Origin: a virus
Strand: one strand, 5' to 3'
Virus record (IMG/VR): IMGVR_UViG_3300045110_000270
Location: 1 to 22,756 of that record
Length of the DNA stretch: 22,756 nucleotides
Shown: one piece after another, positions 1 to 22,756 of the stretch
Position numbering within the stretch: the stretch's first letter is position 1
Layout of the letters: every line of letters starts with the position of its first letter
Translations under genes and position numbers: made by a program
Notes under the pieces: generated by a model
Seen by the model: only the letters and a program-made list of their open reading frames with translations
Databases searched by the model: none
Told to the model about the DNA's origin: nothing

Positions 1-127
1 ATCTGAGGGGAGTCGCATGTCTGCGACCGATGCAATGCTGTCACGCTTCCAGGCTGAGCTCGAGGAGCGACGCACGTTCATGGATGGGCTGATCGAGGCC
101 GCCGAGTCGGCCGGCCGCGATCTGACC
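1..127. repeat. Terminal direct repeat, left copy
   Basis: These 127 bases are identical to positions 22630-22756. An exact repeat of this length at the two ends of a contig is what a short-read assembler leaves when it closes a circular or circularly permuted molecule, and 127 is a common maximum k-mer size. It is therefore best read as proof of completeness and not as a biological terminal repeat. It contains the start of the major capsid gene. Confidence 0.95.
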
Positions 128-1219
128 ACCGAGGAAACCGATCTGTACACGCGGGCACGTGACCGGATGCGCGTCATCGCCGGGCAGATGGAACCACTGC
201 AGGAGGGCGCCCGGATCGCCATCGAGTCACGCGCTCGGACAGCGGAGCTCGTCGGCATGTACGCCAACGCCCGCAACCCGCAGGCCGCCAACGTCGAGTA
301 CCGCTCGGCCGGCGCGTACATCGCCGACATGTACTGGGATCTGCTCGGCGACACCGACGCCCGTCAGCGTCGAGAGATCTTCCACCGCGCCGCGGCCCAC
401 CAGACCACGGCCGACAACCCGGGTCTGCTGCCCGAGTCGATCGTGCAGCCGATCATCAACTTCATCGAGGTCGCCCGGCCGCTGATCGCCTCGGTCGGCC
501 CGACCGATCTCGGTCCAGGGGCGTGGTCGTATGCCCGGGTGACGCAGCACACCCAGGTCGGCAAGCAGGCCGGTGAAAAGACCGAGCTGCCGTCGCGCAA
601 GATGCTCGTCACCAAGACGCCGTTGGGTGCGGATACGTTCGGCGGCTACGTCAACGTGTCCAAGCAGGACATCAACCGGTCGTCGCCGGCGGTCCTCGAC
701 ATGATCATCAACGACCTCGCCCAGCAGTACGGCATCGAGACCGAGGACGAGATGGGGACCGTGATGACTGCCGCCGCCGTCGCGGGCCCGGTGATCCCGG
801 CCGCAGGGACGGCGCTCGACGTGTCCAAGGCGATCTGGACCGCCGCCGGTCTGTGCTTCGCTGCCACCAAGGGGCAGGGACGCACGATCATCGCCGTGTC
901 GCCCGACATGCTCGGCGTGATCGGCCCGCTGTTCCCGGCGATCAACCCGACCAACGCCATCGCGGCGATGAACGCCAGCCAGATCGCCAACGGGACGATC
1001 CCGTCGCTGTCCGGTCTCGGCTCGCTGATGTCGGCCGGGCTCGCCGCCGGCACGATCCTGGTGTACTCGACCGCAGCGGTGAAGGCGTTCGAGTACAAGT
1101 ACGGCAACCTGCAGGTCGTCGAGCCCTCGGTGTGGGGTGTCCAGGTCGGCTACGCGGGAGATTTCGACTCGGTGGTCATCGAGCCGACCGGGATCGTCAA
1201 GGTGACGGTCGGACCGTGA
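17..1219 (+). CDS. Major capsid protein, HK97 fold
   Basis: This 400-residue protein builds the icosahedral shell. Residues about 1-75 are charged and helical (many E, R and A), as in the delta or scaffolding segment of HK97-type capsid proteins that the prohead protease removes. The rest matches the HK97 fold: an extended arm, an 'NPGLLPESIV' segment near residue 133, and a C-terminal domain ending in a 'FEYKYGNLQVVEPSVWGVQVGYAG' type stretch. It lies directly after the portal and prohead protease genes once the circle is closed. The ATG at 17 follows a purine-rich GAGGGGAG about 4 bases upstream. The identification rests on order and overall pattern and is firm. Confidence 0.92.
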   Translation: MSATDAMLSRFQAELEERRTFMDGLIEAAESAGRDLTTEETDLYTRARDRMRVIAGQMEPLQEGARIAIESRARTAELVGMYANARNPQAANVEYRSAGAYIADMYWDLLGDTDARQRREIFHRAAAHQTTADNPGLLPESIVQPIINFIEVARPLIASVGPTDLGPGAWSYARVTQHTQVGKQAGEKTELPSRKMLVTKTPLGADTFGGYVNVSKQDINRSSPAVLDMIINDLAQQYGIETEDEMGTVMTAAAVAGPVIPAAGTALDVSKAIWTAAGLCFAATKGQGRTIIAVSPDMLGVIGPLFPAINPTNAIAAMNASQIANGTIPSLSGLGSLMSAGLAAGTILVYSTAAVKAFEYKYGNLQVVEPSVWGVQVGYAGDFDSVVIEPTGIVKVTVGP

Positions 1220-5159: not shown

Positions 5160-6022
5160 CGATCATCGACGCACCCTGGATCGCGGACGACGACTGCGAG
5201 ACGCACGAGTGGCGTTCGGCGCAGGGTGAGACGATCCGCTTCGTCACCCGCACCGAGGCCGAGCAGCGGATGATGCCGCCGGTCACGATCAACTCGATCA
5301 GAGTGCCACAGTCGCAGGGCGCCAGCTTCCGAGGCGCCCGCCACGAGCCACGACTTGCGACGATCCCTGTCGTCGTCCCGGGCCCGCAAGCCGGCCGAGA
5401 CGAGCTCCGCCGATGGGCCAAGGCCCTCGACCCACTCAAGGGTGAGGGCACGCTCACCGTCGTCGTCGGACCGTGGGCCGGCCGTCAACTGGTGTGCGTG
5501 TACGAAGCCGGGCTCGAGGACTTCGCAGAGGAGTGGCCACTGCTCGGCCTCACCGTGCTCGGGTTCCGCGCCTCGGACCCGTACTGGCAGGACTCGCTCG
5601 AAAGCAGCGCGACGGCCACGATCGCCTCGACAGGGTTCACCTGGTTCCCGTTCTTTCCGCTCGTACTCGGCGCGTCCGACGTTTTCGCTCAGCTGACGAT
5701 CAACAACGCCGGCGACGTCGACGCCTGGCCGGTGATCACCGTCGTCGGCCCGGGCACCGATCTCCACCTCACCAACCTCACGACCGGCAAAGAGATGCTG
5801 CTGACCGGAGCGCTCGCCGCCGGTTCCACCGCGGTGATCGACACCCGGCCCGGTCACAAGACTGTGACCATCGACGGCGTCAACGTGTTCTCGCGGCTGA
5901 CAGCAACGTCGTCGTTGTGGCCGCTGGTGCCCGGCCCGAATCGTGTCTCCATCGGTCTCGCTACGGGCACCGCGGCGTCATCGGTTCGGTTCGCCTGGCG
6001 GAACAGGTGGCTCGCGGCATGA
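5156..6022 (+). CDS. Distal tail protein (Dit-like)
   Basis: A 288-residue protein overlapping the tape measure stop (ATGA). Proteins in this slot form the hub ring at the tail tip that joins the tube to the receptor-binding complex. Features fit the siphovirus tail-component family: an N-terminal beta domain with 'RTEAEQRMMPPVTINSIRVPQ', then 'LTVLGFRASDPYWQ' near residue 142 (the 'f.a.DPyw' motif is characteristic), and a C-terminal galectin-like beta domain ('NAGDVDAWPVITVVGPG', 'TIDGVNVFSRL'). Confidence 0.85.
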   Translation: MTIIDAPWIADDDCETHEWRSAQGETIRFVTRTEAEQRMMPPVTINSIRVPQSQGASFRGARHEPRLATIPVVVPGPQAGRDELRRWAKALDPLKGEGTLTVVVGPWAGRQLVCVYEAGLEDFAEEWPLLGLTVLGFRASDPYWQDSLESSATATIASTGFTWFPFFPLVLGASDVFAQLTINNAGDVDAWPVITVVGPGTDLHLTNLTTGKEMLLTGALAAGSTAVIDTRPGHKTVTIDGVNVFSRLTATSSLWPLVPGPNRVSIGLATGTAASSVRFAWRNRWLAA

Positions 6023-7122
6023 CCACCTGGACCCTGTATGTCGCCGACCAGCTCGGCCAACGCCAAGCACAGATAGACGTCTATCACCACTTCCAAGTGA
6101 TCGCCCGCCACAACGCGGTATCGACCTGGGCGCTCGCGATGCCGACCGATTGCGATGCCGCCGACGCGATGTTGAATCTCGAGCATCCGCGCGTCGTGCT
6201 GCGCATCGATGACCGCACCCTGCGATCCGGGCCGATGACTCACCTCGAGCGCAACATCACCAACGAGGGCGACGACCTGTCACTGACTGGTGTCGATGAC
6301 ACCGTCTGGCTGACCCGCCGTGTCGCCCACCCGCAACCGGGCACCGCTGCGCCGCCGTACGCGACCACGGCCTACGACATCCGAGCCGGCAACGCCGCAC
6401 AGATCCTCGCCCAATACATCGATGTCAACGCCGGCCCGTCGGCCGTGCCCGCCCGTCGCGTTCCCGGTCTTGTCGTCCCGGTACCGGCACCAGCCGGCGG
6501 AGCCGTCACCTGGCAGGCCCGATATGAAGGCCTTCTCGACTTCATCATGTCCAAGGCCAACGCCCTCGGTCTCGGCGTGCGCGTCGTCGACTTGTCCGTC
6601 GACGTGTTCACACCCGTCGTGCGCAACGCCGTGTTCTCACTCGAGCTCGGCACCCTCGCCGAGACCTCGTCGACGTTCGACGCCGCCGACGCCAACTTCG
6701 TGTACGTCGCCGGCCAAGGCGTCGGCGCCGCCCGCACCATCGTCGAAGTCACCGACGCCCAATCGGTGACCGACTGGGGACGGGTCGAGCAGTTCCAAGA
6801 TCGCCGCGACACCAACGACGTCGCCCAACTGACAAGCGCCGGCAACGAGACACTCGAGCGCGGCGTCACCCCACGAGTCGTCACCTACGAACCGATCGAC
6901 AGCCCGGTGCAGCAGTTCCCCCGCGACTGGTCCGTCGGTGACATCGTCCAAGTCCGAGTCGGCGACCAGATCCGCGCCGACATCGTCCGCGAGGTAGCCG
7001 TCACCCTCGACGAGGGCGAACCGGTGAAGATCACCGCCAACATCGGCGCCGGCAACGACCTCGCCATGTTCCAAGCGAGCCTCGACGCCAACCGCCGGAT
7101 CCGACAACTGGAACGAGTGTGA
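6019..7122 (+). CDS. Gp37-like minor tail protein
   Basis: A 367-residue protein overlapping the Dit-like gene (ATGA). It resembles the Gp37-like tail protein family named after Rhodococcus phage ReqiPepy6: beta-rich N-terminus, 'HPRVVLRIDDRTLRSGP', a central 'PYATTAYDIRAGNAAQI' region, and a C-terminal 'WSVGDIVQVRVG' segment followed by a helix ending 'ANRRIRQLERV'. These proteins occupy the tail-hub position next to Dit and probably form the base of the tail tip. The stop codon overlaps the ribosome site of the next gene. Confidence 0.75.
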   Translation: MTTWTLYVADQLGQRQAQIDVYHHFQVIARHNAVSTWALAMPTDCDAADAMLNLEHPRVVLRIDDRTLRSGPMTHLERNITNEGDDLSLTGVDDTVWLTRRVAHPQPGTAAPPYATTAYDIRAGNAAQILAQYIDVNAGPSAVPARRVPGLVVPVPAPAGGAVTWQARYEGLLDFIMSKANALGLGVRVVDLSVDVFTPVVRNAVFSLELGTLAETSSTFDAADANFVYVAGQGVGAARTIVEVTDAQSVTDWGRVEQFQDRRDTNDVAQLTSAGNETLERGVTPRVVTYEPIDSPVQQFPRDWSVGDIVQVRVGDQIRADIVREVAVTLDEGEPVKITANIGAGNDLAMFQASLDANRRIRQLERV

Positions 7123-7132
7123 GGAGGTCGCC

Positions 7133-8002
7133 ATGGTTGCGATGAACGTATGGCCAACCGACGCCGCCGATGGCTCGGTCGCCAACGAAGCCCGCTGGCG
7201 CAAGATGGGCCGACTGTGGACACCGACCGGCGCCGCCGCAGCTGCAGCAGGATCTGCGCTGCTGCCGACGCTGGCGTTTCCGAACCTGACCGTCAAGGCC
7301 GGCGGCTGCTGGGTCGACGGCCACTTTTGCGAGCTCCCCGGCGACCAGGTCCTCGCCGTCACTGCGAACGGGCTCGCCGTGGTCCGTTTCGACCCTGCGG
7401 CGAACACCGCCCAGCTGCTCTACCTCGACGGCGTCACGGTCCCGGCACAGTCACCGACGGGCACCTATGAGATGCCTGTCGCCAAGATCAGCGGTTCGGC
7501 GTTGATCGACGTGCGTGCCGTCGTCACCTCGACCGGGACGCTGACGTTCCCGAGTGTCGCGGCGCGCGACTTCAACATGCCCGCCGCCGGCGGCAACATC
7601 GGCGCGACCTGTGTCACCGCCGACACCGGCACCCAATGGATCGTCATTCCACTACCGACCCCCAGCTGGTCGGCGTTGCCACAGACCACACCATGGGTCG
7701 GCTTCACGTTCCAGAACGGTTGGACAAACTTCCTGGGCGGCCACATCTCGGGCGCCTACCGCAAGGTTGGCGACACCGTCCAACTGCGCGGCCTCGTCAA
7801 CGCCGGCGTCGTCGGTGGCGCAACCCCGATCGCCACACTCCCGGGCGCCTTCCGACCCGCAGCGACACACTTCTTCGGGACGGTTTCCAACGGAGTATTC
7901 GGGCTCGTATCCGTTGCCAGTGACGGCACGATCACTGCGCTCGCTCCATCGACTAACGCATACGTGTCGCTCAACGGGCTGACCTTCTCCACATCACCCT
8001 GA
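7133..8002 (+). CDS. Receptor-binding or minor tail protein candidate
   Basis: A 289-residue protein with a strong ribosome site (GAGGAGG at 7121-7127, overlapping the previous stop). Residues about 1-30 look like an attachment segment, and residues about 45-130 are beta-rich with 'GGCWVDGHFCE' (a frequent element of tail proteins where a carbohydrate or host structure is bound). The C-terminal third ('GWTNF', 'AYRKVGDTVQLRGLVNAG', 'TLPGAFRPAATHFFG') is the beta fold of many tail-fibre tips. It is the last tail gene before lysis, so it is the best candidate for host recognition. Confidence 0.7.
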   Translation: MVAMNVWPTDAADGSVANEARWRKMGRLWTPTGAAAAAAGSALLPTLAFPNLTVKAGGCWVDGHFCELPGDQVLAVTANGLAVVRFDPAANTAQLLYLDGVTVPAQSPTGTYEMPVAKISGSALIDVRAVVTSTGTLTFPSVAARDFNMPAAGGNIGATCVTADTGTQWIVIPLPTPSWSALPQTTPWVGFTFQNGWTNFLGGHISGAYRKVGDTVQLRGLVNAGVVGGATPIATLPGAFRPAATHFFGTVSNGVFGLVSVASDGTITALAPSTNAYVSLNGLTFSTSP

Positions 8003-9592: not shown

Positions 9593-9964
9593 CTAGCCGC
9601 CGCAGTCGGCGACCACTTGCGGATCCGCCCTGACGTCGTCGAACGACGTCGGGTGACCCTTGGCGGTCGCCCAATCGGCGAACGTCGCGTACTCGACGCC
9701 ATCGACGACCACGTTCGCCTCACCCGCGGCGTCGCGCTGCTCGGTGAGCTTGTTCCACTCGTCGACGACGGCGTTCCACTTGTCCATGACGCAGTTGTAG
9801 ACCTCGAGCGGCAACCCGTCGACGAGGACCGTGTTCCCAGGCGTCACCGTGGTCGACGGCGCCGGCGCACCCGGTTCGTCATCACCGCCACCGCCACCGT
9901 CACTGCCGCAACCCGCCAACACGACAAGCACCACCGCGCAAACGTACCGTCCGAGGATCTTCAT
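9593..9964 (-). CDS. Lipoprotein, possible lysogenic conversion or exclusion protein
   Basis: A 123-residue lipoprotein. A short basic N-terminus (MKILGRY), a hydrophobic stretch and the lipobox LAGC (Cys19) mark it for lipid anchoring on the outside of the membrane; a Gly/Asp linker follows. The mature part is acidic and has two further cysteines (58 and 121) that could pair. The start at 9964 is chosen because GGGAGG lies six bases upstream; an in-frame start further out lacks a ribosome site. It is transcribed against the lytic genes and lies next to attP, typical of genes expressed in the prophage, such as superinfection-exclusion proteins. The function is inferred. Confidence 0.8.
   Translation of the reverse strand: MKILGRYVCAVVLVVLAGCGSDGGGGGDDEPGAPAPSTTVTPGNTVLVDGLPLEVYNCVMDKWNAVVDEWNKLTEQRDAAGEANVVVDGVEYATFADWATAKGHPTSFDDVRADPQVVADCGG
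9632..9650. repeat. Perfect 8-bp hairpin at the end of the lipoprotein gene
   Basis: GACGTCGT (9632-9639) and ACGACGTC (9643-9650) pair perfectly around a three-base loop. It lies inside the 3' part of the lipoprotein gene, just past the convergent stops, where it could slow transcription from the lysis operon. There is no T-run, so a classical intrinsic terminator is not supported. Confidence 0.4.
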
Positions 9965-9989
9965 CGGGTGCCTCCCATCGCTGGATGCA

Positions 9990-10000
9990 ACTGACACTCA
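9990..10000 (+). repeat. Candidate integrase arm-type site, left copy
   Basis: The 11-mer ACTGACACTCA occurs here and again, in the same orientation, at 10191-10201, flanking the tRNA-derived attP core on both sides. Short direct repeats on both arms of attP are what the N-terminal domain of tyrosine integrases binds. This copy also borders an 11-base palindrome, CACCTTAGGTG (9999-10009). Confidence 0.45.
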
Positions 10001-10201: not shown

Positions 10202-10230
10202 TCGTGCAAGGTCGCCGACAGGAGAATCCC

Positions 10231-11169
10231 ATGCCCACACCAGCTTCCACCCCGCTCGTCCGCTCATTTCTGAGAAATATGGGCTGGGCCGACAGCACCC
10301 AAATCTCGGCAGTCAGCGTGCTGAATCGCTGGCACGACTTCCTCGCCCGGCGCGGCCTCGAGCTCGTCGACGCCACCCGCGACGACTGCGAGTCGTACCT
10401 CGCCGAGCGCGAATCGGACGGCATCGCTGCCGCTACCCGACAGGTCGACTGGCGCATGCTGCGCGCCCTGCACAGCTGGCTCCATGACGAAGGCGACGCC
10501 GTCACCAACCCGATGGCACGGGTCAAAGCTCCACGCGTGTCGGAGACGCCGGTCAAGGTCCTCGACGAGCGCGAGTACCGGGCACTGGTCGGCGCCTGCG
10601 ACCGGCGCACGACCGGTGGACGACGAGACGAGGCGATCCTGTCGCTGCTGTGGTGGTCAGGCCTGCGCCGTTCCGAGGTGTGCGCGGTCGACCTCGAGCA
10701 GCTCGACTTGCGCGACGGCACGCTGACGATCGGGTCGCGCACCTTCACGACGAAGTCCAAGAAGGTGCGACGGGTGCCGCTCGCCGGCGAGACCGTCGCC
10801 GCCCTCGACCGCTACCTCCGTCGCCGTGGCGACGACCCCGGCCCGCTGTTCTTGTCCGAGCGCGGCGACGCCCACGACGAGCGACGGCTGCGCCCGAACT
10901 CGGTCCAGCTCATCCTGCGCCGTCGTGCCAAGCAGGCCGGCCTCACCCGCCCGATCGGCGCTCACGAGTTCCGGCGAGCGATGGCAGTCCGCCACAAGCG
11001 TCGCGGCGGCTCGGACCCGGCACTGATGGCGATCGCCGGCTGGTCGAGCATCCGCATGGTCGACCGCTACACGCGCATGGACCGCGAGGAGCTCGCCGCC
11101 GAGGAATTCCACCGGCTGATCGACGACTCGAGGCCGGCCGCTCGACGTCGCGGTCGCCGCGTCAGCTGA
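10231..11169 (+). CDS. int: Tyrosine recombinase (phage integrase)
   Basis: A 312-residue integrase that recombines attP with the host tRNA-Gly gene. Residues about 5-95 form the SAM-like core-binding domain; residues about 108-300 are the catalytic domain with Arg146 ('SGLRRSEV'), a Lys in 'TKSKKVRRVPL' (about 175-178), His245 and Arg248 ('HEFRRA'), Trp271 ('AGWSS', in place of the second His as in some family members) and nucleophile Tyr280 ('MVDRYTR'). ATG 10231 is chosen because AGGAG lies right upstream; an in-frame GTG at 10204 has no ribosome site. It is close to XerC/D in size and lacks a long arm-binding domain, which makes the arm-site proposal less certain. Confidence 0.93.
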   Translation: MPTPASTPLVRSFLRNMGWADSTQISAVSVLNRWHDFLARRGLELVDATRDDCESYLAERESDGIAAATRQVDWRMLRALHSWLHDEGDAVTNPMARVKAPRVSETPVKVLDEREYRALVGACDRRTTGGRRDEAILSLLWWSGLRRSEVCAVDLEQLDLRDGTLTIGSRTFTTKSKKVRRVPLAGETVAALDRYLRRRGDDPGPLFLSERGDAHDERRLRPNSVQLILRRRAKQAGLTRPIGAHEFRRAMAVRHKRRGGSDPALMAIAGWSSIRMVDRYTRMDREELAAEEFHRLIDDSRPAARRRGRRVS

Positions 11170-16490: not shown

Positions 16491-17147
16491 ATGCCGTTCT
16501 TCCGCGTCGATGACCAGTTCCACAACTCCCCGACAGTGCTGCAGGCTGGCAATGCCGCGGTTGGGCTGTGGGTGCGGTGCGGCGCCTACTCAGCCAACTA
16601 CCTGCTCGACGGGTTCGTGCCGATCGACGTCGCCCTCGCCTATGGGACACGTCGCGAGATCGACCGAGCCATCGACGCCGGCCTCTGGGCGCACGTCGCC
16701 CCGGGCGGACTCTTGATCCCGTGGGCCGAGCAGTACTCGGCAGATCAAGTCCGCGCCCAACGTGCATCTACCGCCGAGCGTCAACGGAAATGGAAGGAGG
16801 CACACGGAAACGATGCCGCTAACGGCGTTAGCAGACGGCCCCCAAAGCCCAAGCCCAAGCCCTCTGTGAACGAGCAAGCAGCAGCAGCAGACGTGCGCGA
16901 CATCAACGGCTGGCCCGCTGCTGCTGCTGTTCTCGAAGCAATCGATCTGTTCATCGCTCACAAAGTCGACCGTGACCAGCCACGACGACCCGACGCCTAC
17001 AGGCGCAAGCTGCGCGATGAGATCCCGGGCGAGTACCACGACGCGCTCAACGAGTACTCGACCGCGCACCCAACCGCGACACGAAACGACATCGCCCGCG
17101 CTGTGTTCGGCTTGTCAGTCGTCGACATCCGAAAGGCCACCCGATGA
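16491..17147 (+). CDS. Replication initiator-like winged-helix protein
   Basis: A 218-residue protein resembling the phage replication proteins of Actinobacteria: 'MPFFRVDDQFHNSPTVLQAGNAAVGLWVRCGAYSA' and 'YLLDGFVPIDVALAYG' at residues 1-55 form a winged-helix domain; residues about 95-125 are a Lys/Pro linker ('PKPKPKPS'); the C-terminal part is helical, as in DnaD-like or replisome organisers. ATG 16491 is the only start in this frame nearby and lies 11 bases after the transglycosylase stop, without a clear ribosome site. The gene body contains a striking set of repeats that may be the origin. Confidence 0.8.
   Translation: MPFFRVDDQFHNSPTVLQAGNAAVGLWVRCGAYSANYLLDGFVPIDVALAYGTRREIDRAIDAGLWAHVAPGGLLIPWAEQYSADQVRAQRASTAERQRKWKEAHGNDAANGVSRRPPKPKPKPSVNEQAAAADVRDINGWPAAAAVLEAIDLFIAHKVDRDQPRRPDAYRRKLRDEIPGEYHDALNEYSTAHPTATRNDIARAVFGLSVVDIRKATR
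16818..16929 (+). other. Candidate replication origin inside the initiator gene
   Basis: Within 112 bases the initiator gene holds a perfect 15-base palindrome (GCTAACG-G-CGTTAGC, 16818-16832), three tandem copies of the six-base unit AGCCCA (about 16845-16862, encoding Pro-Lys repeats), and a 12-bp inverted repeat made of CAG and CTG triplets (16879-16890 and 16918-16929). Both triplet arms encode Ala-Ala-Ala-Ala yet use GCA codons in one arm and GCT in the other, so the inverted repeat is not forced by the protein. Origins lie inside the initiator gene in lambda and many other phages. This is inference. Confidence 0.35.
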
Positions 17148-17680
17148 CGCCCGATGACGCTGAGGAGTACACCGCCTCGCTCGGTCAGATCGTCGCCGGC
17201 AGCTGGCGGCAGGTCGCCTGGGCTGACCGCCAGGGCATCCCCGCCGCGCTCGGCCTGACGACGCGGGAGTGGGTCGAGCGGCGGCTCGGCGGCTACGTGC
17301 GGCTCGCCATCCCCGAGCGTCGGGAGGCCGTCGCCGAGCTCACCGAGGAGGGACTGAGCCAGCGCGAGGTCGCCAACGTTCTGGGCGTCGACCAAGCCAC
17401 GGTGCAGCGTGATGCATTTGCATCACGATCCGAGGAAGAGCAGCCGGAGCAGCTTCGCGCCGATGCAGTTGCATCGCCCGAGGACCTCGAGGAGCGTCGC
17501 CGCGAGAGGGAGCGCACCGAGGCGATCGCCCGGCAGGTCAATCGGCTCCGCAACGTGATCGACGGCTGGCCGACGATCTCCAACCTTCACACCAGTCCGC
17601 TACGCACCGAGGTGCTGGCGGCTCTTGCCACCGATGAGCGACGGCTCATCCTCACCATCGAGGAGACCACCCATGCCTGA
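17144..17680 (+). CDS. HTH regulatory or partition-like DNA-binding protein
   Basis: A 178-residue protein. A helix-turn-helix at about residues 70-90 ('LSQREVANVLGVDQATVQRD') is followed by a charged linker (about 91-130) and a helical C-terminus. The linker holds two repeats, 'DAFAS' (90-94) and 'DAVAS' (107-111), whose DNA is a near-identical 14-base palindrome each time. ATG 17144 overlaps the previous stop (ATGA), with GAAAGG upstream; a 10-base tandem repeat (CCGATGACGC) surrounds the start. Proteins with this HTH in actinobacteriophages are annotated only as DNA-binding. It may bind its own gene and the site at 20575. Confidence 0.75.
   Translation: MTPDDAEEYTASLGQIVAGSWRQVAWADRQGIPAALGLTTREWVERRLGGYVRLAIPERREAVAELTEEGLSQREVANVLGVDQATVQRDAFASRSEEEQPEQLRADAVASPEDLEERRRERERTEAIARQVNRLRNVIDGWPTISNLHTSPLRTEVLAALATDERRLILTIEETTHA
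17411..17424. promoter_or_regulatory. TGCA-N2-TGCA dyad, site 1 (inside the HTH gene)
   Basis: GATGCA-TT-TGCATC, a perfect dyad apart from the centre. It uses codons rare in this GC-rich genome (GCA, TTT, TCA), which suggests selection on the DNA and not on the protein. A near-identical copy lies 51 bases downstream and a third ahead of the portal gene. Confidence 0.55.
17462..17475. promoter_or_regulatory. TGCA-N2-TGCA dyad, site 2 (inside the HTH gene)
   Basis: GATGCA-GT-TGCATC, the same dyad as site 1 with one central base changed, in the same reading frame and 51 bases further on (17 codons, about five helical turns), so both sites would face the same side of the DNA. Confidence 0.55.
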
Positions 17681-18233
17681 CGATCAAACCCTCAACGTGC
17701 TGTGCGACCACTTGCTCCGACAGTTTCGGCCCGACCGCTTCGTCGTGAGCGGCGAGGAGGAGATCACCGACGAGGATGTCATCACCAACAGCTGGCTCGA
17801 TGAGGTCGCCGCCGAGCTCGAGCGCGAGATCAGGGTCGAAGATCTGCAGCGCGTCGTCAACCGACAGCTCCGCAGGCTGGTCGCAACTCGAGAGGGCATC
17901 GCCTGCAAGCGCGTCAACGCGATGTTGCGCGACTACCACGACCGCCCGACACTCCATGATCCACGTGACCCTGAGTGGATCGGTCCGCTCCTCGACGACC
18001 CGATCTCCGTGGTCACTCGATCGAACCTCGACGGCCGGACGAAGATCCTCTACGAGCATGTTGCACTCCGAGCAGCCAGCTCCGACGACCTTCGCAGGTT
18101 CGCCATCGAGGAGCGTCGCCGTGCAGCACGCGACTTCGCATCGCGCGAGAGCAGCTGCGCTGGCGCCGAGGAGTTGGCCGATGACATGGACGCCGCCCGA
18201 GTCGCCCTCGCTGGCGAGTACCTGGCACCGTGA
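17673..18233 (+). CDS. Protein of unknown function
   Basis: A 186-residue acidic and helical protein overlapping the HTH gene by eight bases. The N-terminus ('LNVLCDHLLRQF') and the Arg/Glu-rich middle ('LEREIRVEDLQRVVNRQLRRLVATREG') suggest helical packing. It has no signal, membrane segment or clear motif. It lies between the HTH protein and the loader-like protein, so a role in replication or packaging (including an unrecognised small terminase) is possible but unsupported by any motif. Confidence 0.7.
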   Translation: MPDDQTLNVLCDHLLRQFRPDRFVVSGEEEITDEDVITNSWLDEVAAELEREIRVEDLQRVVNRQLRRLVATREGIACKRVNAMLRDYHDRPTLHDPRDPEWIGPLLDDPISVVTRSNLDGRTKILYEHVALRAASSDDLRRFAIEERRRAARDFASRESSCAGAEELADDMDAARVALAGEYLAP

Positions 18234-18637
18234 CCGGAGAGCAGGCCGCCGACATCATCGTCCGACTCGACGCGGGATGGCCCGACCGGTGGGACGCCAC
18301 CAAGGTCGACCTCTGGCTCGAGATGCTCCAGGAGCTCGACTTCGACGACACCTTCGAAGCCGTCACCGAGCTGTTCCGGATCAGCGAGAAACTGCCGACG
18401 TTCGCCACACTGCGGACCCGCGTCGAGATGGCCGACCGTCGCCGCCACCCCGGCCTGCCCGCGTCACCGTGCCTGCGCTGCAAGCATCAGCCGGCCGAGG
18501 TCGGGCGCACCCGGTGCGCGCCGTGCCAGCTGATCGTCGACGACGAGGTTGCTCGAGGGGTGGTGTCGCCGGCGATGGCGGGTGCGATCGCTGCTGCTCA
18601 TCGGTCACGGCGGGCCAAGACCGAGGTGGTGGAGTGA
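18230..18637 (+). CDS. Helicase loader/inhibitor-like protein (G40P loader family)
   Basis: A 135-residue protein starting at a GTG overlapping the previous stop. Residues about 5-65 match the small helical domain of helicase loaders and inhibitors of the SPP1 gp39 (G40P loader) type: 'AADIIVRLDAGWPDRWDATKVDLWLEMLQELDFDDTFEAVTELFRISEKLPTFATLRTRV'-like, with the 'LPT.A.LR' motif typical of these proteins. The C-terminus adds a Cys cluster ('CLRCKH...CAPC') that could bind zinc. It would recruit the host helicase to phage DNA, which fits the absence of a phage helicase. Confidence 0.7.
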   Translation: MTGEQAADIIVRLDAGWPDRWDATKVDLWLEMLQELDFDDTFEAVTELFRISEKLPTFATLRTRVEMADRRRHPGLPASPCLRCKHQPAEVGRTRCAPCQLIVDDEVARGVVSPAMAGAIAAAHRSRRAKTEVVE

Positions 18638-18703
18638 CGTCTCGTGGGGCGCGCGAGACGGGTCGGTTTTTTTGGTGGAACTTCCCCCGGGATGTCGTCC
18701 CGG
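18638..18703 (+). terminator. Tandem hairpins with T-run ending the early operon
   Basis: Directly after the loader-like stop, CGTCTCG (18638-18644) and CGAGACG (18654-18660) form a seven-pair stem; a run of seven T follows six bases later (18667-18673). A second stem, CCGGGA (18687-18692) with TCCCGG (18698-18703), comes right after. The T-run after a GC stem is the best intrinsic terminator in the genome, though the six-base spacer is long. The 150-base gap is also the natural place for a cos site just before the terminase. Confidence 0.55.
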
Positions 18704-18787
18704 CGCCTCTCTCTCCCTGGATGCAATTCGGGCTGATTCGGGCCGGATCCTGGCCGATCGTCGCCGTCCGCCGCGGATCGGGGCGCA

Positions 18788-20557
18788 ATGCCGCGGACCG
18801 GTAGCCCGTACGGTCCGCAGTATCAGCGGCGCCGGCGCCGGCTGCTGGGGCGGCCGTGTGAGCTGCGGCTGGTGTGCAGCGGTGCGCCGGCGACCGAGGT
18901 TGATCATGTTCCGCCGCTGTCGCGGCATCGCCATGTCGAGGGGTCGGGGTGTTGTCGGGAGCGGCCGGCATGCGGTCCGTGTCAGCGCCGCCAGGCCGTC
19001 AACCTGGCCAACGAGACCCGCGGCCGGCGCGGCCGTGTCGTCGACGAGCTCCTCGAGATGCCGGAGCCGGTCGGGTTCGATGTCGACGACTCGATGTGGG
19101 ATGTGGCGCCGTGGTTGGATGATCTGCGGGAGGTGCCGGCCGATGCGGTGTGGCCGCGGTTGATGACCGCGCCGCACCCTCGCGCTGTCGACTCGTTGGG
19201 TGTTGAGTTCGAGTGGTGGTGCCGCACCCATCGGCAGATCACGTTGCGGTGGTGGCAGCGGCTCGTCGCGCGCCGGCTGCTCGAGGTCGACGTCGAGGGC
19301 CGGCTGGTGTGGCTGGTGTTGATCTTGACGTTGGCCCGCCAGCTCGGCAAGTCGTGGCTGCTGTGGTTGATCTTGTCGTGGCGGCTGCATCAGGGGGAGC
19401 GGTTCGGGCGGCCGCAGCGGCTGGTGCACATGTCGATCCAGATGTCGCAGGTCCGTGATGTGATGGCCCGCGAGCTCGGCTTCGCGGATGCGCGCCCGGA
19501 TCTGTATGCGACGTTGGACAACAACAACGACACGTCGATCGAGTGGCTGCGCGACGGGTCGAAGTGGGTGCGGGTGGTGCGCGGCACCGCGCGGGCCGGC
19601 GGCGCCTACGGCCAGTCGGAGGTCGCGGTCGGTGTCGTCGACGAGGCCTGGTCGATCCCGGCGGCGGTCGTCGACGACGGCCTCGAGCCGACCATCGTCG
19701 AAAGCGAGCAGCCGTGGCTGGTGCTGATGTCGACCGCGCACCGCATGTCGACGGCGCTGATGCTCGACCGGCGCAGCTCGGCGCTCGACGACATGTGGGC
19801 GCCGCAGCTGCCGGTGCTGATCGTCGAGTGGTCGACGCCGCGCTACTACGGCCTCGACGACGTCGACGGGTGGCGGCTGGCGTCACCGGTGTGGTCCGGG
19901 CAACGCGAGCAGCTGATCGGCATGCGCGTCCAACGGGCGCTTTCCGGGTTCGCGTCGGAGGATCCGAACGAACCGGACCCGGTCGAGTCGGTGCGCGCCC
20001 AGTGGCTGAATCAATGGCCGATCAAGCTGACCGTTCAGGGCAAGGTCGAAGCGTTGCTCGGCGGCGACCGGTGGGGTGGGTTGACGTCGCACGGCGAGAT
20101 CCCGCGGCGGGTGTGGGTCGCGGTCGCGGACAACTTTGGGCGCGGCGCCGGCGTCGTCGCGGTGGCCGACATCGGCGGTGACCGGTTCGAGGTCGACGGG
20201 TGGACGTGCCCGGATCGTGTCGCGGCGCTGGCCGCGGCCCGGTTGACGGTGCGCACGTTGGGTGTGCCCGGGCGGATCGTTGTCGAGCCGGCGTTGGCGA
20301 CGGTGGCGCCTCGAGCAGACAAGGCCAAACCAGAGGATGTGCGCTTCGGGCTGCCGTTGCTGCGCGAGCTCGTCGACTCCGGGCGGGTGGTGCACGACTC
20401 GACACCGGAGCTCGATGTGCAGCTCGCCGAGTGCCGTGTCCGCGCCGTGCAGGGCGGCCTGGCGTTGGCGTCCCCGGCCCGCTCGGATCTGGTCCGGGCG
20501 GCGGCGTTGGCGACCCGGGCCGCGGTGGTTCACCGGCCACAGCCCGGCATCCACTGA
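18788..20557 (+). CDS. HNH endonuclease fused to terminase large subunit
   Basis: A 589-residue protein joining two usually separate packaging proteins. Residues about 15-75 form an HNH nuclease: Cys24, Cys30, Asp39-His40 ('TEVDHVPPLS'), Cys62-x2-Cys65 and Asn72, the C-C-DH-CxxC-N order of phage HNH proteins found next to terminases. Residues about 130-589 are TerL: ATPase with Walker A-like 'ARQLGKSW' (Lys187), Walker B 'VGVVDE' (Asp285, Glu286) and motif III 'MSTAH' (314-318), then an RNase H-like nuclease beginning near 'VVAVADIGGD' (Asp461). The reading frame is unbroken across the junction (about residues 80-130). ATG 18788 has only a weak ribosome site. Confidence 0.9.
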   Translation: MPRTGSPYGPQYQRRRRRLLGRPCELRLVCSGAPATEVDHVPPLSRHRHVEGSGCCRERPACGPCQRRQAVNLANETRGRRGRVVDELLEMPEPVGFDVDDSMWDVAPWLDDLREVPADAVWPRLMTAPHPRAVDSLGVEFEWWCRTHRQITLRWWQRLVARRLLEVDVEGRLVWLVLILTLARQLGKSWLLWLILSWRLHQGERFGRPQRLVHMSIQMSQVRDVMARELGFADARPDLYATLDNNNDTSIEWLRDGSKWVRVVRGTARAGGAYGQSEVAVGVVDEAWSIPAAVVDDGLEPTIVESEQPWLVLMSTAHRMSTALMLDRRSSALDDMWAPQLPVLIVEWSTPRYYGLDDVDGWRLASPVWSGQREQLIGMRVQRALSGFASEDPNEPDPVESVRAQWLNQWPIKLTVQGKVEALLGGDRWGGLTSHGEIPRRVWVAVADNFGRGAGVVAVADIGGDRFEVDGWTCPDRVAALAAARLTVRTLGVPGRIVVEPALATVAPRADKAKPEDVRFGLPLLRELVDSGRVVHDSTPELDVQLAECRVRAVQGGLALASPARSDLVRAAALATRAAVVHRPQPGIH

Positions 20558-20671: not shown

Positions 20672-21961
20672 ATGGAACGCCCGCCGTCGAGTGGCCGGTA
20701 CGCGGCCCTCGGTCTCGGTCGGGTGGAACAACGCTCTCTGAACCCTCAGAACATCACGCCGAACGACACGGTGCCGCCGGCGTCGGATCCGGGGACGGTC
20801 GGCGTGATCGACACGGTGATCCCCGGCGACCCGGACGGTGTCGAGTTCGTCGACGAGGGTCCGGGCGGGTCGTGGCCGCCGTCGATCATCCGCCCTTCGG
20901 CGTGGTCCGGGTGGCCGGCTGAGTGGTCGACGCCGAACTGGTGGGGGCGGCTCGAGACGTTGACCGACACGGCGTGGACGTGTCTCGATCTCAACTCGTC
21001 GCTGTTGGCAACGATGCCGCCCTATCTCGTCGGGGCGTCGCCGTCGCTGCCCGATGACTGGCTCGACAACCCTGACCCGGCCAAGTATGCATCGTGGGAG
21101 GAGTTCGCCAAGCAGCTGTTTTGGGACTACCAGCTCGGCGAGGCCTTCGTCCTGGTGACCGCCCGGTATTCGAACAACTTCCCGGCCCGCTTCCATGTCG
21201 TCGAGCCGTGGTTCGTCAACGTCGAGATGGTCGGCGGTGAGCGTCGCTATTCGATCGGCGCCATCGACGTCACCGCCGACATGTTGCACATCCGCTACCA
21301 GGGCGGCGCCAATGACGCTCACGGCCACGGACCCCTCGAGGCCGGCCGCTCCCGACTGATCGCGGCGTCGGTGCTGACCCGCTACGGCACGAACATGGCT
21401 ACGAGCGGCGGGATCCCCAACGCCGTCCTCAAGCATCCCGACGAGCTCACCTCCGACCAGGCGACCGCCTTACAGAACGACTGGATCACCGCCCGGCTGT
21501 CGACGATGGGTCTGCCGGCGGTGCTGTCGGGTGGCATCACGTTCGAGACGCTGCAGATCTCGCCCAAGGACATGGCGTTGACCGAGCTGCTGGAGTTCAA
21601 CGAGTCACGGATCGCCGTGCTGCTGCGGGTGCCGCCGTTCCTCGTCGGCCTGCCCTCGGGTGGTGATTCGTTGACGTACAACACGGTCTCGATGGCCCTC
21701 GACTACCACTGGCGCGCCGGGCTGCGACCCAAGGCGCAGACGGTGATGGCGGCCCTGTCGTCGTGGCTGACACCGCGCAGCACCCGCATCGAGGTCAACC
21801 GCGACGCCTACGTGCAACCCGAGCCGCTGATCCGTGCACAGACGTGGGACATTCTGATCCGCATCGGTGTGCTCACCGTCGAGCAGGTCCAGGCGATCGA
21901 GCGGTACGGGGCCGGCGACGCGTCCGGCGTCGACGACATGATGACGGGGGCAGCCCTATGA
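20672..21961 (+). CDS. Portal protein, HK97 family
   Basis: A 429-residue portal, the dodecameric ring through which DNA enters and leaves the head. The start is set at ATG 20672 because an upstream in-frame start would run through the candidate operator and promoter. Family features: 'NWWGRLETLTDTAWTCLDLNSSLLATMPPYLV', 'HVVEPWFVNVEM', 'ISPKDMALTELLEFNESRIAVLLRVPPFLVG' and 'DSLTYNTVSMA' are the characteristic HK97-portal stretches. Its last bases overlap the protease gene (ATGA). The first 60 residues are poorly conserved. Confidence 0.92.
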   Translation: MERPPSSGRYAALGLGRVEQRSLNPQNITPNDTVPPASDPGTVGVIDTVIPGDPDGVEFVDEGPGGSWPPSIIRPSAWSGWPAEWSTPNWWGRLETLTDTAWTCLDLNSSLLATMPPYLVGASPSLPDDWLDNPDPAKYASWEEFAKQLFWDYQLGEAFVLVTARYSNNFPARFHVVEPWFVNVEMVGGERRYSIGAIDVTADMLHIRYQGGANDAHGHGPLEAGRSRLIAASVLTRYGTNMATSGGIPNAVLKHPDELTSDQATALQNDWITARLSTMGLPAVLSGGITFETLQISPKDMALTELLEFNESRIAVLLRVPPFLVGLPSGGDSLTYNTVSMALDYHWRAGLRPKAQTVMAALSSWLTPRSTRIEVNRDAYVQPEPLIRAQTWDILIRIGVLTVEQVQAIERYGAGDASGVDDMMTGAAL

Positions 21962-22530
21962 ACGAACCGATGATGGGTCCGATCGAGTACCGATCGGCGA
22001 CCACGCTCGAGGTGCGCCACGCGCAACGGATGATCGACATGATCGCCGTCCCGTACAACGAACCGACCCAGGTGCTGCGCCGCGGCCGGCTGGTGACCGA
22101 AGAGTTCGACCCGCTGGCCTTCAACGGTGTCGATGGTGACGTCACCGTGAACCGGGCCCATGACCTCGAGCAGCCCCTCGGTCGGGTCACCTCGTTCCAT
22201 CCGAACGACCCGCGAGGCCTTCGTGTCGAGCTGCGGATCTCGAAGACCAGCGGCGGCGACGAGGTCCTGGAGCTCGCCGACGACGGCCTCCTCGCTCCCT
22301 CGGTCGGGTTCGCGGCGCTTCCCGGCGGTGAGCAGTGGACGGCCGATCGGCGGAAGGTGCGGGTCACCCGGGCGAAGCTGTTCCACATCGGCTTGACCGG
22401 CGACCCGGCGTACAAGGGCGCCAAGGTGCTCGCCGTCCGCTCCGCCGATGAGCCGACGGTACATGCGCCGACGCCGAACCTCGACCGGCTCCGACTGGAG
22501 ATGCTTGTCGAGCGCGCCCGGCTGACGTAA
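21958..22530 (+). CDS. Prohead protease (HK97 type)
   Basis: A 190-residue serine protease that matures the capsid by removing the N-terminal scaffold segment. Visible motifs: His68 in 'NRAHD', Ser115 in 'LAPSVGF' and the conserved 'FHIGLTGDPAY' (about 142-152), which corresponds to the E-vSLv--PAy strand of the family. It overlaps the portal stop (ATGA) and precedes the capsid gene, the standard portal-protease-capsid order. Confidence 0.92.
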   Translation: MNEPMMGPIEYRSATTLEVRHAQRMIDMIAVPYNEPTQVLRRGRLVTEEFDPLAFNGVDGDVTVNRAHDLEQPLGRVTSFHPNDPRGLRVELRISKTSGGDEVLELADDGLLAPSVGFAALPGGEQWTADRRKVRVTRAKLFHIGLTGDPAYKGAKVLAVRSADEPTVHAPTPNLDRLRLEMLVERARLT

Positions 22531-22645
22531 CCTCGCGCCCAACCAGTCGAGGAGACCCTCGGGCGAGCGGCCAGTGCCGCCGGACCGAGCGAGCGATGTC
22601 ACCGGACTCGGAACATCTACCCGTTTCGAATCTGAGGGGAGTCGC
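22531..22645 (+). other. Intergenic leader of the major capsid gene
   Basis: A 115-base non-coding stretch between protease and capsid gene (16 bases of it repeated at the window start). It holds a weak hairpin (CTC-GC-GCCC against GGGCGAG, 22532-22567, with a two-base bulge) and the capsid ribosome site GAGGGGAG. A long leader here may serve an extra capsid promoter, but I see no convincing -10 and -35 pair. Confidence 0.45.
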
Positions 22646-22756
22646 ATGTCTGCGACCGATGCAATGCTGTCACGCTTCCAGGCTGAGCTCGAGGAGCGAC
22701 GCACGTTCATGGATGGGCTGATCGAGGCCGCCGAGTCGGCCGGCCGCGATCTGACC
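22630..22756. repeat. Terminal direct repeat, right copy
   Basis: Exact copy of positions 1-127, showing that the contig closes on itself. The unique genome length is therefore 22,629 bp, and 22629 joins to 1. Confidence 0.95.
22646..22756 (+). CDS. Major capsid protein, repeated 5' end (partial)
   Basis: The first 37 codons of the capsid gene, duplicated by the terminal overlap of the contig; the full gene is at 17-1219. This is not a second capsid gene. Confidence 0.95.
   Translation, partial: MSATDAMLSRFQAELEERRTFMDGLIEAAESAGRDLT

Follow-up and report, generated by a model that had tools for sequence, protein, structure and literature searches.

An in-frame HNH-large terminase fusion adjoining an inferred cos site in uncultured phages

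An uncultured phage encodes an HNH nuclease domain and its large terminase (TerL) as one polypeptide, and this fusion probably acts as a single-chain cos terminase whose HNH domain would cut DNA beside its own gene. The one-chain architecture and the location of cos are well supported, and the role of the HNH domain as main nuclease is what we infer from the residues kept and lost in the two nuclease domains.

The fusion gene lies in a 22,756-nt stretch of viral DNA, referred to as the window, which was analyzed over its whole length (Table 1). An exact terminal repeat of 127 bp, in which positions 1 to 127 equal positions 22630 to 22756, indicates a closed genome of 22,629 bp; although the genome is closed, the contig break falls between the protease and capsid genes. 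Elsewhere in the window, an open reading frame (ORF) at 10204 to 11169 looks by eye like a tyrosine integrase, which suggests a temperate phage. Another, of 134 aa on the minus strand (9593 to 9997), runs against the orientation of nearly all other window genes and has, by eye, the look of a small lipoprotein with a signal ending in LAGC. Scans of the window for tRNAs and Rfam families gave no matches.

Table 1. Positions of the fusion gene, its parts, its neighbors, and the inferred cos elements in the window
Feature	Coordinates	Strand	Basis or remark
Major capsid protein gene	17..1219	+	phrog_2263, E 2e-54; after the protease gene across the circular join
Intergenic gap holding the inferred cos	18638..18787	+	cos-to-fusion interval without any gene
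T7-GGTGG element, conserved upstream part of cos	18667..18678	+	contig-end motif of relatives
Inferred cos cut region, hyphenated palindrome CCGGGA-TGTCG-TCCCGG	18687..18703	+	homology with contig ends of relatives
Pyrimidine tract TCTCTCTCCCT, conserved downstream part of cos	18708..18718	+	motif in relatives
HNH-TerL fusion gene	18788..20557	+	589 aa; one open frame
HNH domain, type A, residues 1-78	18788..19021	+	D39-H40, H47, H49, C55, C56, C62, C65
Linker, residues 79-122	19022..19153	+	predicted model; 79-89 low confidence
TerL ATPase part, residues 123-435	19154..20092	+	Walker A K188, Walker B D285-E286
TerL RNase H-like nuclease part, residues 436-589 plus stop	20093..20557	+	positions 500 and 567 mapped partly by motif
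Portal protein gene	20672..21961	+	PF04860, E 5e-37; next after the fusion
Prohead protease gene	21958..22530	+	PF04586, E 3e-11

Architecture and distribution of the fusion

A single open frame of 589 codons carries both domains, as the first-pass annotation had proposed. The whole protein matches the TerL profile phrog_9 (E 4e-14), and the closest PDB fold to its predicted structure is HK97 TerL (6z6d; Foldseek E 2e-19 over 523 columns). The Walker A (residues 183 to 190) and Walker B (281 to 286) motifs fall where that annotation had placed them; K188 and D285 align with HK97 K60 and D153, and both residues are invariant across the fusion family. The nuclease region, which had been put at about residue 461 onward, starts nearer residue 441, and one acid of the HK97 triad is missing from it. 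The HNH domain bears the signature D39-H40 and C62xxC65. Residues 1 to 121 of the window protein match the HNH profile phrog_2323 weakly (E about 0.01; 0.008), and the same domain in relatives matches PHROGs HNH profiles at up to E 8e-8 for one HNH type (type A) and 1e-18 for the other (type B).

An AlphaFold2 model of the fusion, built with 67 relatives, has a mean pLDDT of 88.9. It places a beta-beta-alpha unit in the HNH part at residues 37 to 77 (strands 37 to 41 and 57 to 61, helix 63 to 77), with elements mostly at pLDDT 83 to 93, then falls below 50 across residues 79 to 89 of the flexible linker. The HNH domain modeled alone was poor (pLDDT 71), a PDB fold search with it gave no match, and the model was left unused. 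By profile and predicted fold, the fusion is a member of the TerL family and, by profile, of the HNH families.

Two main HNH types occur among 67 fusions. Type A (40 of 67, including the window) also matches HNH and endonuclease VII profiles, and D39, H40, P42, H47, H49, C55, C56, P60, and C62 are invariant in its 38 aligned members. Type B (27 of 67) reads CxRCG-WDLGHxDGDRSRY-GPEH-CNR, and its 1e-18 match is to the HNH profile phrog_1808. Position 66, the third catalytic position of the HNH helix, for which Asn or His is typical, is Asn in most relatives, Gln in the clade of the window, and Ala or Ser in a few.

The fusion recurs well beyond the window. In-frame fusions were found in other IMG/VR contigs at 98, 78, 60, 57, and 40 to 46% identity, and broad contig scans returned 159 and then 367 contigs encoding relatives, the 367 from one scan. 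Among 134 distinct TerL sequences inspected, 129 had an open frame reaching 95 residues or more ahead of the ATPase part, and in 127 of these HNH is in frame with TerL. The two exceptions are Nocardioides contigs. One, L147, has a third HNH-like type that lies outside the scoring of the HNH models used; the other, L148 from Nocardioides alcanivorans, has an HNH-like ORF and TerL in different, overlapping frames at 5456 to 7443, a state reflecting a frameshift, decay, or an unfused form.

Differences between the window and its relative L002 are biased to third codon positions (1, 0, and 15 at positions 1, 2, and 3 in the HNH part; 0, 0, and 6 in the linker), which shows purifying selection on the HNH part. 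Because HNH and TerL are in frame in nearly all distinct relatives and the HNH part is under selection, the fusion is not a sequencing error. The first-pass annotation had itself raised the prospect that two genes were joined by error or that translation of a separate TerL starts at the internal ATG of residue 91. Such an origin is hardly credible: the ATG is present, the L148 frames do differ, and other TerL families have a separate HNH gene just upstream, yet the frame shared by 127 distinct sequences, which come from many metagenomes, refutes the error, and residue 91 varies (Glu in 35 of 67), its Met codon being preceded by no evident ribosome-binding site.

In a further alternative, a selfish element such as a homing endonuclease entered terL at its start, was tolerated there, and is now seen as the HNH part. 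HNH homing genes are often found near terminase genes (PMC10448857). In a quick TerL-core tree, moreover, the HNH type labels need four changes, one of them forced by well-supported branches, so an exchange of HNH types between fusions is possible, as such an element might produce. Nevertheless, we regard this origin as very unlikely, since the HNH is present in practically all of a diverse clade rather than patchily, always at the N terminus, with no empty-site relatives of this TerL clade; it is also under strong purifying selection, and its stand-alone relatives adjoin cos.

Among isolated phages, a type-B relative used as query matched 692 records, none covering 80% of the query. A tblastn search of isolated phages with the window protein found nothing at 1e-5, and at loose limits the same target gave only TerL-core matches at 23 to 26% identity. 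No Pfam or NCBIfam model covers the HNH-TerL fusion. A genome scan with a narrow alignment found nothing, and one with a broad alignment found four bacterial contigs, one from an Acidimicrobiia metagenome-assembled genome (MAG) and three from Nocardioides. Because these are the only bacterial records found, actinobacterial hosts are likely for the clade and may be presumed for the window. The first-pass annotation knew of no well-described case: this stands for the open-access literature searched, where no fused HNH-TerL was found, but not for uncultured contigs, hundreds of which carry the fusion; database homologues, which that annotation would have counted against its claim, are many (the 367 contigs above). 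A paper on cluster AN (PMC5679792) was considered as a prior description and rejected, as it reports no fusion.

The cos region upstream of the fusion gene

The contigs of relatives show a large excess over chance of breaks just before the fusion gene. A break falls 0 to 150 nt before the fusion start in 16 of the 38 contigs that reach 10 kb, against 0.3 expected, and in 69 of the 134 distinct sequences. The broken ends share a motif consisting of T6-7, about 20 nt, the cut, and a pyrimidine tract, and in six contigs both ends fall within it. Right ends lie 19 to 21 nt past a T6 run in five contigs (G003, G016, G027, G030, and G031) and 32 nt past a T7 run in G032; a run of T5 or more 15 to 35 nt before a random end occurred in 0.1% of trials. 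Left ends lie 24 to 30 nt after the T-tract, a scatter of six bases. In contigs that read through, a T-tract followed after 25 to 70 nt by a pyrimidine tract was present at 18 of 34 loci versus 0.3% of random segments.

Two contigs from two metagenomes, L067 and L069, start at one identical base, and L071, which is identical to them in the terL region, reads through the break. Compared with L071, exactly 11 nt, CCCCGTTCCTC, are missing between the two ends of G027 (the same contig as L067), a gap that a lost 3' overhang would fit. In standard practice, library end repair removes single-stranded 3' ends, and this step may have produced the gap in G027. A separate observation concerns G003 (28,204 bp; L085 at its start and L086 at its end), whose two ends have 11 bp, TGGAGCCCGGA, in common where cos lies. 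This overlap is the opposite of the G027 gap, and a simple 3' overhang does not explain it.

For the window, the cut region is predicted by homology with six contigs (G003, L008, G016, G027, G030, and G031). The only run of T6 or longer on the given strand is at 18667 to 18673, and the full motif spans 18667 to 18718, within the interval that the first-pass annotation had proposed for cleavage (18638 to 18787). Purely by homology, the right end would be at 18692 to 18694 and the left end at 18697 to 18703. The cos is thus shown in relatives, and predicted in the window, to lie in the gap directly upstream, about 85 to 95 nt before the ATG at 18788, which would make the fusion the first gene after cos. 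That unique physical genome ends adjoin the terminase gene is well supported, for relatives by contig ends and for the window by homology. In uncultured phages, the places where contigs end can reveal physical genome ends, and hence cos sites.

Candidate nucleases and the search for a small terminase

The catalytic center of HK97 TerL comprises D302, D388, and D471, and the HK97 HNH protein gp74 promotes cos cleavage in vitro (PMC9410871). At the three TerL positions, the window has Ala447 (with Asp448 adjacent), Glu500, and Asp567, a pattern shared with L004. Glu-Gly-His occupies these positions in 50 of 67 members and Glu-Gly-Asp in 10 of 67, and none of the 67 has all three acids at the aligned positions, the mapping being approximate: motif and secondary structure in part guided the matching of the second and third positions, and the nuclease positions as a whole rest on a wider alignment because the profile comparison with HK97 TerL alone was weak. 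The TerLs of Mycobacterium phage Charlie, Arthrobacter phage BrayBeast, and L303, which have separate HNH genes, likewise lack the first catalytic acid, and the alignment with Charlie and BrayBeast (L149 to L152) suggests that HNH-bearing phages may generally rely on HNH.

The core HNH residues are kept across the clade, and no second HNH of type A or B was found in 35 records. Because the TerL acids are incomplete, the HNH core is kept, and no other HNH of these types is present, the evidence favors the view that HNH does the cutting in most of the clade. The case is weaker for the window itself: its HNH carries Gln66, two acids remain in its TerL, and the TerL nuclease of the window may still work. 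The idea that decay of the HNH and of the TerL nuclease is reciprocal was dropped, as L007, L009, and L010 have both Gln66 and Gly500.

The same residues bear on a reading in which the HNH is only an accessory, with the TerL RNase H-like nuclease doing the cutting and the fused HNH stimulating it or helping to bind cos DNA. The HK97 HNH protein has been described as promoting cleavage by terminase (PMC9410871), and the window, with Asp448, Glu500, and Asp567 in TerL and Gln66 in the HNH helix, would suit such a role. Across the clade, however, Glu-Gly-His prevails and no member has three acids, while the HNH residues are kept, and we consider an accessory HNH unlikely.

Searches with PF05119, PF03592, and phrog_1459 recognized no small terminase (TerS) in the window and 15 related long records, in agreement with the first-pass annotation. 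The intervals from cos to the fusion and from the fusion to portal are too short to hold a gene, and the only families common to all 20 genomes compared are portal, HNH-TerL, and capsid. Three candidates upstream were rejected: the product of 17144 to 17680 is a helix-turn-helix DNA-binding protein (phrog_664) without a terminase profile; the 186-residue protein at 17673 to 18233, which had been put forward for comparison with small terminases, has no convincing profile match; and that of 18230 to 18637 has a weak helicase-loader match and no terminase profile. Small terminases diverge fast, and therefore the result means that none is recognizable rather than that none exists. As far as can be tested, the fusion would fall outside the two-subunit TerS-TerL definition of a terminase. 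Elsewhere, phrog_4581, a profile of 395 positions labeled small terminase, matches the HNH domain near its C terminus (E 0.006, from L046:28-300), hinting at TerS-HNH fusions.

Comparison with known systems and proposed function

The parallel with HK97-like cos cleavage drawn in the first-pass annotation fits. HK97 resembles the window in TerL fold, in the order TerL, portal, protease, in the presumed involvement of an HNH at cos, and possibly in a 3' overhang. It differs in having three separate genes (TerS gp1, TerL gp2, and HNH gp74), with TerS beside TerL, whereas the window has one HNH-TerL chain and no recognized TerS.

Type B is 47 to 66% identical to stand-alone HNH genes at the right genome ends of Mycobacterium and Arthrobacter phages. 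In Charlie and BrayBeast, this homologous, phrog_1808-like HNH is the last gene, just left of cos, and a small first gene stands between cos and TerL; their cos sequence is similar (TGACCCCGCC...GTCA...pyrimidines), and the ends of the Charlie record resemble the cos layout of the clade. Arthrobacter Korravirus WonderBoy has the same gene order with a more distant HNH. WonderBoy and Corynebacterium phage BFK20 have the nearest isolated TerLs (23 to 30% identity in the ATPase part) and cos near the left end, but no fused HNH, and their separate small gene 1 has a small-terminase-like or unknown profile. In the uncultured L269, L297, and L303, a stand-alone type-B HNH immediately precedes TerL with no intervening gene, at the place where a small terminase usually sits; here the two frames overlap or abut, and the TerLs belong to other families. 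These gene pairs are plausible unfused forerunners of the fusion. One can readily picture neighboring HNH and TerL genes becoming one, the separate genes presumably coming first.

The best reading by analogy is that the fusion would work as HK97-type cos packaging with an HNH partner does, in single-chain form. The TerL part would dock on the portal and pump DNA. With the complex on cos in a concatemer, the tethered HNH would make the strand cuts or, in another division of labor, just those cuts that the eroded TerL nuclease no longer can, and the outcome would be a short 3' overhang. Fusion would keep the cutter at the motor in a 1:1 ratio and replace the separate HNH partner of HK97-like phages. 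Because no small terminase was recognized, cos may be recognized by the fusion itself, perhaps through the HNH part as the first-pass annotation suggested, or by another protein. Only tentatively would we go further, to a version in which HNH has replaced the TerL nuclease, the fusion recognizes cos without a small terminase, one protein recognizes, cuts, and pumps, and HNH types have been swapped on the motor.

How HNH and TerL divide the work of cutting cos in HK97-like phages is unsettled. The clade offers a natural experiment, because it unites HNH and TerL in a single chain, has its cut site adjacent to the gene, and shows decay of the nuclease residues in TerL. A single purified protein with a short DNA substrate could tell which of the two nucleases cuts and if a small terminase is required. 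Packaging of this kind normally takes a machine of several proteins, and the fusion would be its one-chain version, spread through a large group of uncultured phages.
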